DNA from: a virus
Virus record (IMG/VR): IMGVR_UViG_3300037042_001524
Coordinates: 1 to 22,641 of that record
Strand: one strand, 5' to 3'
Length of the DNA: 22,641 bases
Positions 12,401 to 22,641 of the stretch are shown here, in pieces. The position numbers and the translations under genes are program-made. The number at the start of each line of letters is the position of its first letter. Position 1 is the first letter of the stretch. The notes beneath the pieces are model-generated. The model searched no databases. It saw nothing but the letters and a program-made list of their open reading frames with translations, and was not told the origin of the DNA.

Positions 12401-15400
12401 ACTTCACAAAGAACCTGCTTGGCGACTTCAGCATGGCGACCGTTGATGTGTGGGCTGCCCGCTCATTGCAGCGGATGGCAAACATGCCTCGAATCGCAAT
12501 GGACGAGTCTTCCGCTGGAACCCTTTGGGATCGGCTTGGTTCTGCTCGAAAGCAAGAGACAGGCCGTATTGCGCCATCGGCAGAAGAGGGCGTTGTCGGT
12601 GCATACCAGCCAACCGCCGGAGCCATTGTTGATCCCGAGACTGGCGCTGTCATGGGAGCAAAGAGAGGCTACGGCATCGGAAGCGCTTATGGCGTCGGTG
12701 CAGAAGCGTTCGATGTTGCCGCCAAGAGACTCAAGGAACAGCACGGCATTGACGTGACTCCGGCAGACCTTCAGGCCATCATGTGGTTTGCCGAGAAGGA
12801 TCATTGGCACTACAACCTTGGGCAGAAACTCGACCTTGGAAGTTTTGAGAAGGGGCTGCGCAGGGACTTTGCTGGCGAGGGCGGTCGGTACATCTCCGGC
12901 ACCCTTGGAGGACAGCCGGGCCGTGATCTTGCAGAGGCTGGCGCAAAGGCGATGGAACAGTCGCTTGCTGGCGATGCCAACCTGCTGTTCAAGAGAGCGA
13001 CCATTGCAAACGGTTCAGTTGGTGGACGCGATGCAAGCGGATTCGTCGTCGACGTCGGCGTCACGAACTACGACATGCCTATTGAAGGCGGGCCGTTTGC
13101 AGCGACCAGCCCGGTTGACGTCAAGAGCACGGGAAACCGACGGCTCAATCAGGCAAGCGCAGATTCCGTCATCTCGCGCATGGCGCAGCATGCCAAGGAA
13201 TCGAACAGCGAGTCGTTCTACGTTGCTCGAATCGTCACCGATATGACTGGTTCGGAGGTTCAGGTAACTCCTCCGGCAAAGTCAGGTCAGAAGCAAGCAG
13301 ACGTAGCGCCTGTGAAGGTTGGAGAGGGAAACCTCAACCCAACGGCAAGCACGGTTGGAGTCGAGTTCCAGTTCAAGACTCCACTCGAAGAGAACAACCC
13401 TGCCATTCAGCGGCTTCGCAAGCAGTTTGCGGAGTTCGGCATGCAGTTCGACTCTGCCGCAGAGCGCGCCACCAACAACGTATCCGGCATTGCTGGGGCT
13501 AGGTCAATCTACGTTCCTGACTTTGATCCGCAGATCGTTGCTCTTGCTGACAGCGGTGCGACGTCCGCAGAGATTGCCAGCATGATTGAGAAGCGGAAGC
13601 GTGACTTCCGTTCGCTCGTCAGCAGGACGAAGCAGATCAAGGAGTTCAAGGACAACTCGACCGTCACTAACCTGACGGCTGAAATCGACGTGTACCATTC
13701 GCATCAGTTCGACGAACTGATTGGGCCGCAGGCAGCGGCAGAAGGAGCAGAAGATGCAACCCAAGCCGTCAAGCGCAAGTGGGCGCCCGAAACCCCTGAA
13801 GATCGAATCGCCCGAACAGCCCAGTTCAAGCGGGATGCAGCCGTCGGAATCGACGCCACCCCCGATGGACAGTCAGTCGAGCAAGCCGTCGGAGCCGGAG
13901 CAGTCAGAGCGACTGATGGTGATGTTTCTCCCAGCGCGACGAACGTAAACCCGACCGACGGAACGAAGATTCTGTTCAACACGTCAGGCGCGCAAGCACG
14001 CGCCGTGGCGGCCATCGAAGAGCAGACTGGCATCGCGTTTGTCGCTGGACTCAACATGCCCGACGTCGTGTCGGCTGCGCATGAGTTTGGTCACGCCCTG
14101 CGCAATCAGTTGCTCAACCGCAACCTTCCGATTGAGCGCCGCGCTGGCATTCCCGACACGACCATCGAAGCATTCGAGCAAGCGTACGGCGTCGTCAACG
14201 GAACGTGGACGCGAGGTCAAGAGGAATCGTTTGTCGACGACCTGCTTGAGGTTCTTCGCGATGGCACCGCTGTTCCGGCGCGGCTTGCTGGCGTCGGGCG
14301 CGACGAGCAGTTGATCATGGCGTCATGGCTGCGTGATCAATGGCGCGTGGCTCGCAAATCTCCGGCATCGACTGGCGTTCCCACCGACACGCGACGCTTG
14401 CTTGAGAACCTGTATTACCGCACCGACCTGCCGATTCAGTACGCGCCGGGTCGCTACCTGATGCCGATTGACCACTCTGCGGTCATCGCACGCATCCAGC
14501 AGGCGCAGGCAAACAACGAGGATTGGCTACAGGTCATCAACCCGAACGACGCGCTTGGCACCGCACGCATGCACGTCTTCGACGGCAGGCCGACCATGCG
14601 CGACGAGCGTACTGGCCGCTTCCGCGCGGGCACGGACAGGGAGCGAGCGTTTGCCTCGCCGAACGGCTACAACCTGACGCCAGCGCAGGTCAACGATCTT
14701 CGCACGCGAGCCGCCGCCGGAGATGCTGACGCGCGGCGTCAGATTGCCGACATTGATTCTCGACGGCAGGAGATTCGCGACAACCTGCGGTTCTTCGAGA
14801 ACCCGGACGACCCGCTGATCTACATGGCGTACTTCGAGTCGCTGGCGCGGGAGATGGAAGCCCGCAACATGCTGGGCGGCCCGGCAACTCGCGACCAGTT
14901 GACGCGGCGCTCGTTGTCGATGTTCAACGAACTGCTGATGAACGATGCCGACGACCTGTCGCAGGGCATCGCTTCGATGTGGGCGCGTATGAACGACGTC
15001 AGCCGGATCGACCAAGAACTTCCGGCGTTTGTCAGCACGGTTCAGTTGGCTCTTCAGGGACAGTTGCGTCAGACCCACAGGCTTGCGCAGCGCGCTGTCC
15101 AAACCAACAACCCGGCAGACTTCGCGTTGCTTCAGCGTTCATTCTTTGACCTTCAGATGCTGCGCTTCCACATGCGCAACACCAAGACGGCGATGGGTCG
15201 TGGACTCAAGTCTCTTGATCCGCAGATGCTGCCGAACGCGGCTGAACTTCGCGACCTTCGCAACGCGCGCAACTTCCTTGAGCAGAACGGCTTTGTCGAC
15301 GACATCGGCAGGCCGCTTGCAGAGACTCTTGCGCGCATTGATCCCGACCTCGACCCCAATGCCGCCGTCCGCATCCTCAACGACGTGTGGCGCCCGGGCG

Positions 15401-17637: not shown

Positions 17638-17909
17638 GCGACGTGATGCGTGACATGGCAGATCAGTTCGACCGCGCCCTGCTCAAGGTGCTGAAGGATG
17701 GTCGCACCATCATCGGCCCTGACGGCGAAGAGCGGAACATCGACGCCACGGCTGCTGACCTGAACGTGATCCGGCAGCGGCTCAAGGACTGCGGCATGAC
17801 CGTGACCGCAGAGGAAGCCAGCCCGATCAAGAACATCGTCGAAGAGATGCGCAAGCGTCAACTGCGCATCGGCACTCCGGTAGCCAACGATGACAGGGAA
17901 GCGGTGTGA
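17634..17909 (+). CDS. terS: Terminase small subunit (DNA maturase A-like)
   Basis: A 91-residue protein directly upstream of the large terminase. It begins with an acidic helix (MADQFDRALLKVLKDG) and contains TAADLNVIRQRLKDCGMTV. I recognise that pattern from small terminase subunits of T7-like and related podophages (T/L-x-A-x-L-N-V-I-R-Q-x-L-K-D-N-G-I). Such subunits recognise the packaging site on concatemeric DNA and stimulate the large subunit. T7 gp18 is 89 residues, so the length fits. A GGAGG site precedes the start, which overlaps the giant gene's stop as ATGA. The gene in turn overlaps the large subunit as GTGA, so all three are probably translationally coupled. Confidence 0.75.
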   Translation: MSDVMRDMADQFDRALLKVLKDGRTIIGPDGEERNIDATAADLNVIRQRLKDCGMTVTAEEASPIKNIVEEMRKRQLRIGTPVANDDREAV

Positions 17910-19582
17910 CCAAGGAATCGCAGGAACTCGAACAGTACATCTCTCGACTTGTAGATGACTTCCCGTTCTTCTGCGAGGAGTTGTGGGTCGCCGTCGGCCT
18001 TCCAAAACTTGCCAAGCATCAGCATCAGATTGGCGACTGGTTGCAACGTGGGCCGCGACGCCGTGGCGTGCGAGCGTTCCGTGGTGCCAGCAAGACGTGG
18101 GTGACGCTGGCATTCTGCCTGTGGCGCCTATTCCGCAACCCGAACGAGCGGATCATGCTAGTGTCGAAGACGGAGAAGCACAGCCGCGATTCGCTGTACA
18201 TGGTGCGTTCGTGGATCGACAAGGTTCCGTGGCTGGCGCACCTGTCGCCGCAGCGGACGGAAGGTCACCGCGACAGCGCAACCCAATTCGACATCGCGAC
18301 GGCGCCGTCAGACCGCGTCGCGTCGTTCAGCGCATACGGCATCGGCGGTCAGATCACAGGTGGCCGCGCCACCATGATCATTGCCGACGACGTCGAGACA
18401 AGTCAGAACACCCTGACGCTCGACATGCGCCAGCGCTTGCGCGAGGAGGTCAAGGAGTTCGAGAACATCCTGATCCCGGGCGGCGACATCATCTTCCTTG
18501 GCACGCCGCACCATGAGGAGACTTTGTACGACAAGTTGGTCGATGGCGGATACGTGTTCCAGTCGTGGCCCGCGCGCTACCCGAAAGCCGACGAACCCGT
18601 GCCATCGCTGGCAGAAGCGATGAAGAAGGAACTCGAATCGGGCGTCAGGTCGCCGGGCGATTGCGCGTGGCCGGAACGGTTCGACAACGAAGACCTGCTG
18701 GAACGCGAGGCGGCAGAAGGCCGCAGCACGTTCGCGATGCAGTACATGATGATCACGCACCTTGGGGAGGGGAACCGATACCCGCTCAAGTTGCGCGACG
18801 TCATCGTGTTCCCCATCGCCAAGGACAAGGCTCCGGTCACGATCAGTTGGGGCATGACCAACGACCACGGTCGGAGCACGCGGTGCGAGGACATCCCGTC
18901 GCTTGGATTTGGAGTGGACGCCTACCACGCGCCGATCTTTTGGGACAATGAGTGGGCCGGGTACACCGGATGCCGCATGTGGATTGACCCGTCGGGCAAG
19001 GGCGCCGACAAGACCGCTTACGCGATTGTTGCACACCTGAACGGCTACCTGTGGGTCAAAGCCGTCGGTGGATTTGACGGCGGGTATGAGCAGGAGGTGC
19101 TGGATGGGCTGGCCTACCAAGCCCAGTTGCACGGCGCCGGGATCATCCACGTCGAAGACAACTTCGGCACGGGCATGTTTGCCCGGCTGCTGGAACCCGT
19201 GGTCGCCAAGCGCCGGAAGGAAGGCGACGGCTGGGGCGCCAGCATTGAACCCGTGCGCGTGAGCGGTCAGAAGGAACTGCGGATCATCACCACGCTTGAG
19301 CCGCTGTTCAATCAGCACCGGATCGTCTTCCATCCCGAGGTCGCGCGCAACGATTCGTTGCAGCGCCAGTTGACGCGGATCACCCGGATGCGCAACTGCC
19401 TTCGGCATGACGACGAGATCGACGCGCTGGCGATGTGCTGCAAGATGTGGCAGGACGAAATGCAGACCGACCCACTTGCGGCTGCCGACAACGCCAAACT
19501 ACGATGGTTCAAGCGGCAACTTGACGAGCACATGGAGGCATCGGGAATGTTCCCGTCAAGGCCGCGATGGTTCAAACACTAG
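17906..19582 (+). CDS. terL: Terminase large subunit (DNA maturase B-like)
   Basis: A 558-residue packaging motor with both expected domains. In the ATPase half, a Walker A-like loop RGASKT (K63) lies near the N-terminus. A Walker B segment TMIIADDVE has the acidic pair D161/D162 and E164, and the coupling motif IIFLGTPHHEETLYDKL begins near 195. The RNase H-like nuclease half contains MWIDPSGKGADKTAY (D361), IIHVEDNFGTGMF (E417/D418) and HDDEIDALAM (D502-D506), giving a complete acidic set. The length is close to T7 gp19 (586). The start is a GTG overlapping the small subunit stop (GTGA) behind an AGGGAAG ribosome site. The Walker A loop is non-classical (GASKT instead of GxxGxGKT), as is common in terminases. 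The stop TAG is part of the next gene's ribosome site. Confidence 0.95.
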   Translation: MTKESQELEQYISRLVDDFPFFCEELWVAVGLPKLAKHQHQIGDWLQRGPRRRGVRAFRGASKTWVTLAFCLWRLFRNPNERIMLVSKTEKHSRDSLYMVRSWIDKVPWLAHLSPQRTEGHRDSATQFDIATAPSDRVASFSAYGIGGQITGGRATMIIADDVETSQNTLTLDMRQRLREEVKEFENILIPGGDIIFLGTPHHEETLYDKLVDGGYVFQSWPARYPKADEPVPSLAEAMKKELESGVRSPGDCAWPERFDNEDLLEREAAEGRSTFAMQYMMITHLGEGNRYPLKLRDVIVFPIAKDKAPVTISWGMTNDHGRSTRCEDIPSLGFGVDAYHAPIFWDNEWAGYTGCRMWIDPSGKGADKTAYAIVAHLNGYLWVKAVGGFDGGYEQEVLDGLAYQAQLHGAGIIHVEDNFGTGMFARLLEPVVAKRRKEGDGWGASIEPVRVSGQKELRIITTLEPLFNQHRIVFHPEVARNDSLQRQLTRITRMRNCLRHDDEIDALAMCCKMWQDEMQTDPLAAADNAKLRWFKRQLDEHMEASGMFPSRPRWFKH

Positions 19583-21188: not shown

Positions 21189-21243
21189 TACGGTGATCAT
21201 ACAGCATGTCCACGCTGCTGTCAAGTGGCAAAAATGCAAGATT
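21189..21243 (-). promoter_or_regulatory. Leftward sigma70 promoter P1
   Basis: On the minus strand, TTGACA (21219-21224) and TATGAT (21196-21201) are separated by exactly 17 bp, one mismatch from full consensus. CACCGTA (21189-21195) follows immediately, as in P2 and P3. AATCTTGCA lies upstream at 21235-21243, 19 bp before the -35. A 10-bp direct repeat (CACGCTGCTG on +) occurs in the spacer at 21211-21220 and in the leader hairpin at 21175-21184; it could bind a regulator. This promoter should drive the papain-like gene. Confidence 0.88.
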
Positions 21244-21736
21244 CGTTCACCGTCACGTAAATAGGGAGATGGGGTGAGCGAGCAGCAGCGAGCGAACCCC
21301 CAACCCAGCCCAACGCCCGTCCCGATGTGCAACGCATTGCACAGGGGTGACAGGGAGGGCGGTGGGGTAGGAAGGTCGGAATGTTAGGTGCACGGACTTA
21401 TGAGAGGTGGTACGTAGTACGTCCCACACCCCAGCCCCCCCGCGCCCCCCGCCTCGCGCGCGGGCACCCGCGAGCGCGACGCGCACGCACGCACACGCGA
21501 CGCGCGCACGCGACGCGCCCACGCGACACGCGCGCATGACGCGCGAGCGACGCCCGGCGAGTCGTGCCGGGACTCGCACCGGGTCGACGGGCACGCCGCA
21601 GCGCCGCACGTCGTCGACCTGCCCGCCGGGCGCCCGGCCCGGCCCGCACGTGCGACGCACGCACGTCGCCCCGGACGTCCAGCCCCCAGCACGCTGCACG
21701 CTCGCATGCTGCCCGCAACCGCAGCACGGGACGATT
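21244..21736. other. Non-coding spacer: dyads and a GC-rich alternating tract; candidate genome-end junction
   Basis: This stretch of about 490 bp has no convincing gene. From the left it holds: a T3-promoter-like string ending in AATAGGGAGA (21249-21269); an inverted repeat TGTGCAA-CGCA-TTGCACA (21326-21343); a 21-bp dyad with half-sites GTGGTACGTA and TACGTCCCAC (21407-21427). A C-rich run follows, then a long CG/CA/GC alternating tract (about 21440-21540) prone to Z-form or slippage. Next is a hairpin GCGAGTC-GTGCCGG-GACTCGC (21557-21577). The reading frame that crosses it and joins the 21842 gene is Arg/Pro/Thr-rich low-complexity sequence and is not credible. The position, between late genes ending in the terminase region and early genes, is where a T7-like phage has its terminal repeat and packaging junction; that is inference. 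Confidence 0.6.
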
Positions 21737-21796
21737 GTGCACAATCTTTCACCTTGCCGCTTGACAGCACCCGATGCATGGCGTATCGTCACCGTA
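21737..21796 (+). promoter_or_regulatory. Rightward sigma70 promoter P2
   Basis: TTGACA (21761-21766), 17 bp, TATCGT (21784-21789), then CACCGTA (21790-21796). AATCTTTCA lies at 21743-21751, 18 bp before the -35, within a 16-bp sequence GTGCACAATCTTTCAC (21737-21752) that is repeated exactly at 22454. The upstream edge also makes a 14-bp perfect palindrome GATTGTGCACAATC (21733-21746), a candidate operator. It should drive the 178-residue gene at 21842. Confidence 0.85.
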
Positions 21797-21797
21797 T

Positions 21798-21833
21798 GCC
21801 CAGCGTGTGCTGGGCCTCGCAACCCTACCGGAG
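21798..21833 (+). promoter_or_regulatory. Leader module 2: stem-loop plus CCCTACCGGAG ribosome site
   Basis: GCCCAGC-GTGT-GCTGGGC (21798-21815) forms a 7-bp perfect stem with a 4-nt loop, starting near the expected transcript start. CCCTACCGGAG (21823-21833) follows, giving GGAG about 8 nt before the ATG at 21842. This supports 21842 as the true start, since any upstream start would lie before the promoter. Confidence 0.8.
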
Positions 21834-21841
21834 CCTGCACC

Positions 21842-22378
21842 ATGATCAGCACCTACCTCGACCACTCGACCCAGTTCAACCCCGCCAACGTCGCGAACGG
21901 CACCGCCTACCGGATCGACTGCGACCCGGGCAGCGACCGCAGCGCGCACTACCTTGGCGATGACCGCACGGTGGCGCCCTACTGGGTCGAGGCCCAGCGG
22001 GCGCTGGTGTTCGCGACGCACGACGACGCCGTGGCCTACGCCCGCGCCCGGCTCGAAGGCGAGCATGCGCAGTACAACCGCGCGCCGCAGTCGCGGCCCG
22101 GGCTGGGCTGGCGCGTCGAGCAGTTCGACTACACGCGCGGCATCGTCGACGGCGACGTCGACCCGGCGATGGGCGACCTCGAACGTGCGCAGATGCTGGC
22201 GACGTTCGCGCGGAACCACGGCGTGGCGGCCTATCCCGTGGTGCGCGCTGGCGGCACCTACGTGGCCGTGCAGTCGTCGGCCACGTTCCGATGGTCTGAC
22301 GACGTCGGCGTCACCGTCGACCACGTCGACGTGGTGCCCGCCACGTGGCGCGACGTGCGCCAGCACATGGGCTACTGA
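21842..22378 (+). CDS. Hypothetical early protein (178 aa)
   Basis: A 178-residue acidic protein starting MISTYLDHSTQFNPANVANG. The ATG at 21842 was chosen because promoter P2 and the leader stem-loop lie directly before it, although the frame stays open upstream. It contains HDDAVAYARARLEGEHAQYN (a helix), WRVEQFDYTRGIVDGDVDP, and a repeating V/D-rich end (SDDVGVTVDHVDVVPATW). It has no signal peptide, membrane segment or enzyme motif, and I do not recognise it. Codon usage is visibly more GC-rich than in the late genes. The strong promoter and position as the first rightward gene suggest an early host-takeover or defence-countering product; that is only context. A UUCG-capped terminator follows. 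Confidence 0.75.
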   Translation: MISTYLDHSTQFNPANVANGTAYRIDCDPGSDRSAHYLGDDRTVAPYWVEAQRALVFATHDDAVAYARARLEGEHAQYNRAPQSRPGLGWRVEQFDYTRGIVDGDVDPAMGDLERAQMLATFARNHGVAAYPVVRAGGTYVAVQSSATFRWSDDVGVTVDHVDVVPATWRDVRQHMGY

Positions 22379-22403
22379 CGCCAGCACGCCAGCCGTCGAC
22401 CAC

Positions 22404-22436
22404 GCGGGCGCCCTTCGGGGCGCTCGCTGTCGTTTG
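22404..22436 (+). terminator. Intrinsic terminator with UUCG tetraloop
   Basis: GCGGGCGCCC (22404-22413) pairs with GGGCGCTCGC (22418-22427) over 10 bp including one G-T pair. It is closed by a TTCG loop in the very stable C(UUCG)G context. A weak U-containing tail TGTCGTTT follows. It begins 25 nt after the stop of the 178-residue gene and lies before promoter P3, so that gene probably forms a single-gene transcription unit. Confidence 0.8.
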
Positions 22437-22453
22437 GTGCCGATAACGAGAAA

Positions 22454-22523
22454 GTGCACAATCTTTCACAATCTTGCACGCTGGGCCTTGCGTGCAGCCG
22501 ACTGATACCGTAAGTTCACCGTA
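22454..22523 (+). promoter_or_regulatory. Rightward sigma70-type promoter P3
   Basis: TTGCGT (22488-22493), 17 bp, TAAGTT (22511-22516), then CACCGTA (22517-22523). The hexamers are weaker than in P1 and P2 but the register with CACCGTA is identical. Upstream are two AATCTTKCA boxes (22460-22468 and 22470-22478), exactly 10 bp apart. The first lies inside GTGCACAATCTTTCAC (22454-22469), identical to P2. The nearer box is 18 bp from the -35, as in P2. Confidence 0.7.
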
Positions 22524-22524
22524 T

Positions 22525-22561
22525 GCCCAGCACGTCGCCGGGCGCCCAACCCCTACCGGAG
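22525..22561 (+). promoter_or_regulatory. Leader module 3: stem-loop plus CCCTACCGGAG ribosome site
   Basis: GCCCAGC-ACGTC-GCCGGGC (22525-22543) makes a 7-position stem with one A-C mismatch and a 5-nt loop. CCCTACCGGAG (22551-22561) follows, giving GGAG 9 nt before the ATG at 22571. The order and spacing match leaders 1 and 2, while bases in the stem differ. Confidence 0.75.
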
Positions 22562-22570
22562 TACACCACA

Positions 22571-22641
22571 ATGCCAACCGCACGCGCCAAGTCCGAACGC
22601 TTCGACCTGTACCAGCACGTCACCGACGCCGTCGTCGCCGC
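22571..22641 (+). CDS. N-terminus of an early protein resembling ArdC/DUF1738, cut by the window edge
   Basis: Only 23 complete codons are visible before the right edge. The stretch SERFDLYQHVTDAVVA resembles the opening of the ArdC N-terminal (DUF1738) domain, whose usual form is (F/R)-D-(V/L)-Y-(Q/E)-x-V-T-(D/N)-x-I-(I/V)-A, followed by L-E-x-G-x-x-P-W. ArdC proteins bind single-stranded DNA and can protect incoming DNA from restriction, which would suit an early phage gene. The match covers too few residues to be certain. The start is supported by promoter P3, its leader stem-loop and the GGAG site. Confidence 0.5.
   Translation, partial: MPTARAKSERFDLYQHVTDAVVA

Follow-up and report, generated by a model that had tools for sequence, protein, structure and literature searches.

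The window analysed here is the whole of the IMG/VR virus record IMGVR_UViG_3300037042_001524, a stretch of 22,641 bases classed as linear. Its terminase large subunit (17906-19582; phrog_38, E 9e-104) is of the T7 type and finds its best tblastn matches, at about 38-42% identity, in Pelagibacter and Rhizobium phages; on these matches, the window is a fragment of an uncultured T7-like (autographivirus-like) phage. Three related contigs, whose terminases are 94% identical to that of the window, were compared with it, namely G001 (7,540 bases), G002 (41,539 bases; the nearest long relative) and G003 (23,275 bases), and the four genomes referred to below are the window and these three. Both ends of G002, a record classed as linear, carry the same 156 bases with at most three mismatches (starts of L046 and L042), and this genome is therefore probably complete. 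G002 encodes a helicase, a primase-like protein, a RecE-like nuclease and a single-subunit T7-like RNA polymerase (PF00940, E 3e-86; phrog_414), which is known from G002, the window fragment ending short of that gene. The early region of G002 also contains a tyrosine integrase gene (phrog_1, E 7e-31), preceded by a 75-amino-acid gene with its own promoter (P6) in place of a MarR-like gene.

The locus under study comprises three promoters present in all four contigs (P1, P2 and P3), the genes behind them and the DNA in between (Table 1). The P3 core promoter retains only 6 of the 12 consensus letters in the window and 8 of 12 in the relatives (TTGACG-17-TAGGGT); it was missed by the promoter scan in the window and falls below the scan threshold in G002 too, and was placed by alignment in both. 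The gene behind P3 is cut by the contig end, and its G002 orthologue, which lies directly behind P3, encodes a protein with ArdC N-terminal and zincin-like domains. The structure model of the 178-amino-acid protein encoded behind P2 was unusable (pLDDT 34). The hairpin that follows the P2 gene, ahead of the P3 box, resembles a terminator and is conserved in the relatives, although the terminator scan alone was not above chance (1 found vs 2.6 expected). In all three transcripts the 5' leader forms a hairpin and the ribosome site is CCTACCGGAG.

Table 1. Features of the first promoter cluster of the window, with the integrase gene of G002 in its own coordinates.
Feature	Position	Strand	Remarks
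Gene behind P1	20708..21142	-	144 aa, PHROG 3754 (function unknown)
P1 core promoter	21196..21224	-	TTGACA-17-TATGAT; promoter scan, 11/12
P1 AATCTT	21243-21238	-	19 bp before -35; inside 28-nt invariant block
Dyad TGTGCAACGCATTGCACA	21326..21343	.	P1-P2 interval; identical in 4 genomes
P2 palindrome GATTGTGCACAATC	21733..21746	.	perfect in window; overlaps P2 box
P2 box GTGCACAATCTTTCAC	21737..21752	+	core AATCTT 21743-21748, 18 bp before -35
P2 core promoter	21761..21789	+	TTGACA-17-TATCGT; promoter scan, 10/12
P2 transcript 5'-leader hairpin	21798..21815	+	
Gene behind P2	21842..22378	+	178 aa; no family found; relatives 61-64% identical
Terminator-like hairpin	22404..22427	+	interval between P2 gene and P3 box; conserved in relatives
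P3 box with tandem GTGCACAATCTTTCACAATCTTGCAC	22454..22479	+	AATCTT 22460-22465 and 22470-22475
P3 core promoter	22488..22516	+	TTGCGT-17-TAAGTT; alignment with relatives
Leader hairpin at P3	22525-22543	+	similar to that of P2; another at P1, minus strand
Gene behind P3, start	22572..22641	+	cut by contig end
Leaders	21790-21815, 22517-22543 (+); 21195-21160 (-)	+/-	equivalents in L042, L043, L041
G002 tyrosine integrase	L047:6495-7457	-	phrog_1 match

Upstream of P2 and P3 lies a 16-mer, GTGCACAATCTTTCAC, that recurs exactly, as reported in a preliminary description of this DNA, at 21737-21752 and 22454-22469, and in both places GTGCAC precedes the hexamer AATCTT. With up to three mismatches allowed, the window contains three matches to the 16-mer, compared with an expectation of 0.25 from shuffles; the third match (22464-22479) is the tandem copy at P3. 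The two hexamers at P3 start at 22460 and 22470, exactly 10 bp apart as had been described, and the spacing said to be common to P2 and the nearer P3 copy also holds, AATCTT starting 18 bp before the -35 in both (21743 to 21761 and 22470 to 22488) and the far P3 copy 28 bp before it. P1 does carry a single AATCTT, but the place that had been called equivalent is displaced by one base pair, with an offset of 19 and not 18 in all four genomes. Similarly, the palindrome noticed at P2 is perfect in the window, but the same site reads GATTGTGCAGAATC in G001-G003, with one symmetric pair broken; because the relatives break the symmetry, the palindrome was rejected as a general feature and dropped as a general operator. 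Exact repetition on the plus strand of the window is limited to three 16-mers, namely the box, a piece of the leaders (TCACCGTATGCCCAGC) and one other, while each of 30 shuffles contained 0 or 1. Sharing of a 6-mer at one offset (±1), as seen in these three upstream regions, occurred in none of 20,000 shuffles and in 1 of 20,000 triples of pieces drawn at random from the window; the box is therefore not explained by chance.

Comparison of the four genomes shows how strictly this element is kept. All 16 copies of AATCTT stand at fixed offsets (19 at P1, 18 at P2, 28 and 18 at P3), 18 of the 19 columns of CGATTGTGCA-x-AATCTTTC at P2 are invariant, and so are 23 of the 24 columns of the P3 box. 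Between the box and the -35, identity of the window to the relatives is 0.50 at P2 and 0.42 at P3 (12 nt), with no indel, and the P3 -35 itself is at 0.50. The contrast between box and gap is weaker at P1 (gap identity 0.78), because the P1 box sits within a 28-nt block that is invariant throughout. Since G001-G003 are near one another, this contrast between the window and its relatives represents mainly a single divergence. From its recurrence and conservation, the AATCTT box is a genuine promoter element conserved within a small group of phages, with a function that we infer below. A duplication of a promoter-leader cassette surely made P2 and P3 alike: in G002 the two are 77% alike over 71 nt, and shared ancestry therefore accounts for part of the box likeness. 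The likeness could even be nothing other than a remnant of this duplication, the box having no function of its own, as the leaders of the window share TCACCGTATGCCCAGC as a second exact 16-mer and there is also repetition among terminators, hairpins and ribosome sites. However, duplication leaves unexplained why the box outlasts its surroundings: within each promoter it is preserved whereas the gap next to it, and the -35 as well at P3, drifted. Moreover, P1 has the 6-bp core in common but little else, which makes a functionless remnant unlikely.

The box marks the first promoter cluster specifically and not all early promoters. In G002, the promoter scan gave eight places with at least 9 of the 12 consensus letters, three of which (3569, 31523 and 37776, each 9/12) were dropped because they lie within structural-gene regions; the five with at least 10 of 12 are P1, P2 and the box-free P4, P5 and P6 (11, 11 and 10 of 12, respectively). 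The preliminary description had named absence of the box from promoters of the same cassette as evidence against it, and the outcome is divided: the box is kept at P1-P3 but absent at P4, P5 and P6 of G002 and at P4 of G001, which are strong sigma70-like promoters, and it is therefore not general to the early promoters of the phage. At P4 and P5, GC-rich, hairpin-like DNA lies directly before the -35. With up to one mismatch, the 11-mer TGCANAATCTT has three matches in G002, only at P2 and P3. Among viral contigs, both the exact tandem and a composite box-plus-promoter pattern occur only in G001, G002 and G003, and CACAATCTTTCACNNTG occurs in 24 stretches, about chance by our own estimate. None of the looser relatives (L031-L037, L044, L053-L068) carries the full box at a promoter. 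One of them, L044 (terminase large subunit 77% identical), has a promoter in a similar position, where ATTCTAC stands at the 18-bp offset of P2 and P3 and recurs a further 18 bp upstream; the upstream region has 72% A+T. This offset likeness, seen in one sequence, is suggestive. The exact tandem has one match in a collection of 84,980 bacterial and archaeal species, in a Gemmataceae genome (L052), which was judged to be chance (intergenic in a bacterial contig, with no TTGACA at the fixed place); a search run without a positive control gave no terminase match in that genome. Publications combining AATCTT with phage and promoter included nothing relevant among the matches listed. The same distribution bears on whether the box is part of a promoter for the phage-encoded T7-like RNA polymerase. 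Such a polymerase is indeed encoded by G002, but its promoters would be expected to recur before middle and late genes, whereas the tandem and the 11-mer are absent outside P2 and P3 of G002, and we regard this origin of the box as very improbable.

The reading that we place first, though tentatively, is that the AATCTT box activates three early promoters of sigma70 type from upstream, either as a contact of the alpha-subunit C-terminal domain (alpha-CTD) or as an activator site. AATCTT lies at about -48 to -53 from the inferred start, with the second copy at P3 one helical turn further up, and from this placing and the one-turn repeat a bound protein would share a face of the DNA with the alpha-CTDs of the polymerase. 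The alpha-CTD of the host polymerase would dock at the box in a UP-like manner, or a host or phage activator would do so, and transcription of the first genes (the 144-amino-acid gene, the 178-amino-acid gene and ardC) would be raised on entry. An activating contact would suit the fixed offset, the one-turn register of the tandem and the greater number of copies where the core is weaker. Copy number is inverse to core promoter strength: P3, the weakest core (6-8 of 12), has two boxes, P2 (9-10) and P1 (11) have one each, and P4-P6 have none. The earlier suggestion of a regulator site or polymerase contact in fixed phase with the promoter thus stands as regards the offset, kept in all four genomes despite the drift of the gap, but not as regards the palindrome, which the relatives do not support.

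Counted from the putative start sites, the boxes at P1-P3 occupy the position of an UP element, at about -40 to -60 and upstream of the -35. Against the consensus of that element, NNAAAWWTWTTTTNNAAANNN, 6-9 of 14 positions match at P1-P3, 1-2 at P4 and P5 and 6 at the box-free P6; in G002, 244 of 5,000 places taken at random match at 7 or more positions. Upstream A+T content is 44-60% at P1-P3 vs 16-20% at P4 and P5. Several points weigh against an activating element: AATCTT is unlike the classic A-tract UP element and matches the consensus partially, its sequence is conserved more strictly than an alpha-CTD contact needs, and the core promoters of P1 and P2 are already good. Phage T4 has early "UP/-35/TGn/-10" promoters with conserved upstream contacts in the same region (PMC2988021). 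As in T4, the boxes are a conserved -40 to -60 sequence at early sigma70 promoters, which serve takeover by the host polymerase at once; unlike the A/T-rich sequences of T4 and UP elements, a specific AATCTT flanked by GTGCAC or GCAC is found in a GC-rich phage, and the tandem copy is confined to a single promoter. The promoters with one, one and two boxes, together with box-free controls in the same phage, make a compact, testable promoter set, with which one can ask how an integrase-bearing T7-like phage launches or tunes its first genes, including ardC.

The boxes could instead be operators at which a regulator encoded by the phage (a repressor or a recombination directionality factor) would damp the first promoters later in infection or in a lysogen, which we consider possible but somewhat improbable. 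This remains a serious rival because a relative has an integrase and because the dyad GTGCA-N6-TGCAC is conserved, occurring in the P1-P2 interval of all four genomes and at P3 in three of the four. The integrase of G002 implies that lysogeny control may exist, the boxes are confined to this phage group, and the exact tandem, with its single match judged chance, is not a widespread host sequence. The P1-P2 dyad has the same arms as the P3 box of the relatives and lies in variable DNA. GTGCA and TGCAC are paired in G002 four times at N6, three times at N16 and at none of the other spacings from 0 to 19, with 0.073 expected per spacing; since all three N16 places and those with N6 at 2097 and 14349 fall, by position, within coding ORFs, they were set aside, and only the P1-P2 dyad and the P3 dyad of the relatives were retained. 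On the other hand, a protein bound at -48 to -63 would not cover the -35 and -10, which is unusual for a simple repressor, and no regulator gene was identified, the 75-amino-acid gene before the integrase having no Pfam, PHROG or PDB match. Nor is there a tandem copy near the G002 integrase (14083-15048, in a separate coordinate set), the vicinity of which lacks TGCACAATCTT within two mismatches. The assignment of the 75-amino-acid protein by eye to the ribbon-helix-helix regulators was rejected; a single-sequence model of it (pLDDT 72) shows two helices, and no PDB entry matches this model with E < 5. Fits to the Fis and CRP consensus sequences, judged by eye, were not convincing.

Known phage systems offer likenesses to the box, and identity is claimed for none of these or for T4. 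Direct repeats one helical turn apart, found at P3 in all four genomes while P1 and P2 have single copies, are the reported site form of Apl of phage 186 (PMC7498355). Both phages have an integrase, and the one-turn direct repeats at P3 resemble the early-promoter repeats of 186; unlike in 186, no matching repeats lie near the integrase, no Apl-like gene was identified, and the tandem occurs only at P3 and not between divergent promoters. The T7-like phage LUZ100 (PMC10134795) likewise combines an integrase with three early promoters of the host type, of which the third is off consensus, but it carries a MarR-integrase lysogeny module, whereas no MarR-like gene lies beside or before the G002 integrase and P3 drives ardC instead of an integrase. 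The Mor site at the Mu Pm promoter (PMC4390567) is a 16-bp element of two 5-bp inverted repeats that precedes a sigma70 promoter. GTGCA-N6-TGCAC agrees with it in size, but the Mor element is centred at -43.5, and no Mor homologue was noticed in the present phages. A further proposal, which we hold to be quite unlikely, is that a small phage-coded non-MarR protein reads the 10-bp-phased AATCTT/GCAC half-sites and sets the choice between early expression (including ardC) and lysogeny. If true, such a protein would act on the three earliest promoters of T7-like phages that carry an integrase, among them the promoter of the ardC anti-restriction gene.

Two further observations concern the DNA around these promoters. 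The first transcribed bases covary across the three promoters, reading TCACCGTA at P1, P2 and P3 of the window and being of a (G/C)CCTG(T/C)A type at most promoters of the relatives (deviants are GCATGCA at P3 of G002 and CATGGCA at P2 of G003), which may reflect gene conversion or a shared constraint. Between P1 and P2, a conserved block at about 21379-21434, around GGAATGTTAGGTGCA..GAGAGGTGGTACGTAG..ACGTCC, gives way to GC-rich CG repeats that extend to about 21700. A similar block ("aatgttag...tttatgagggg") lies at 3490-3530 of L044, and the block is possibly an origin or an RNA.
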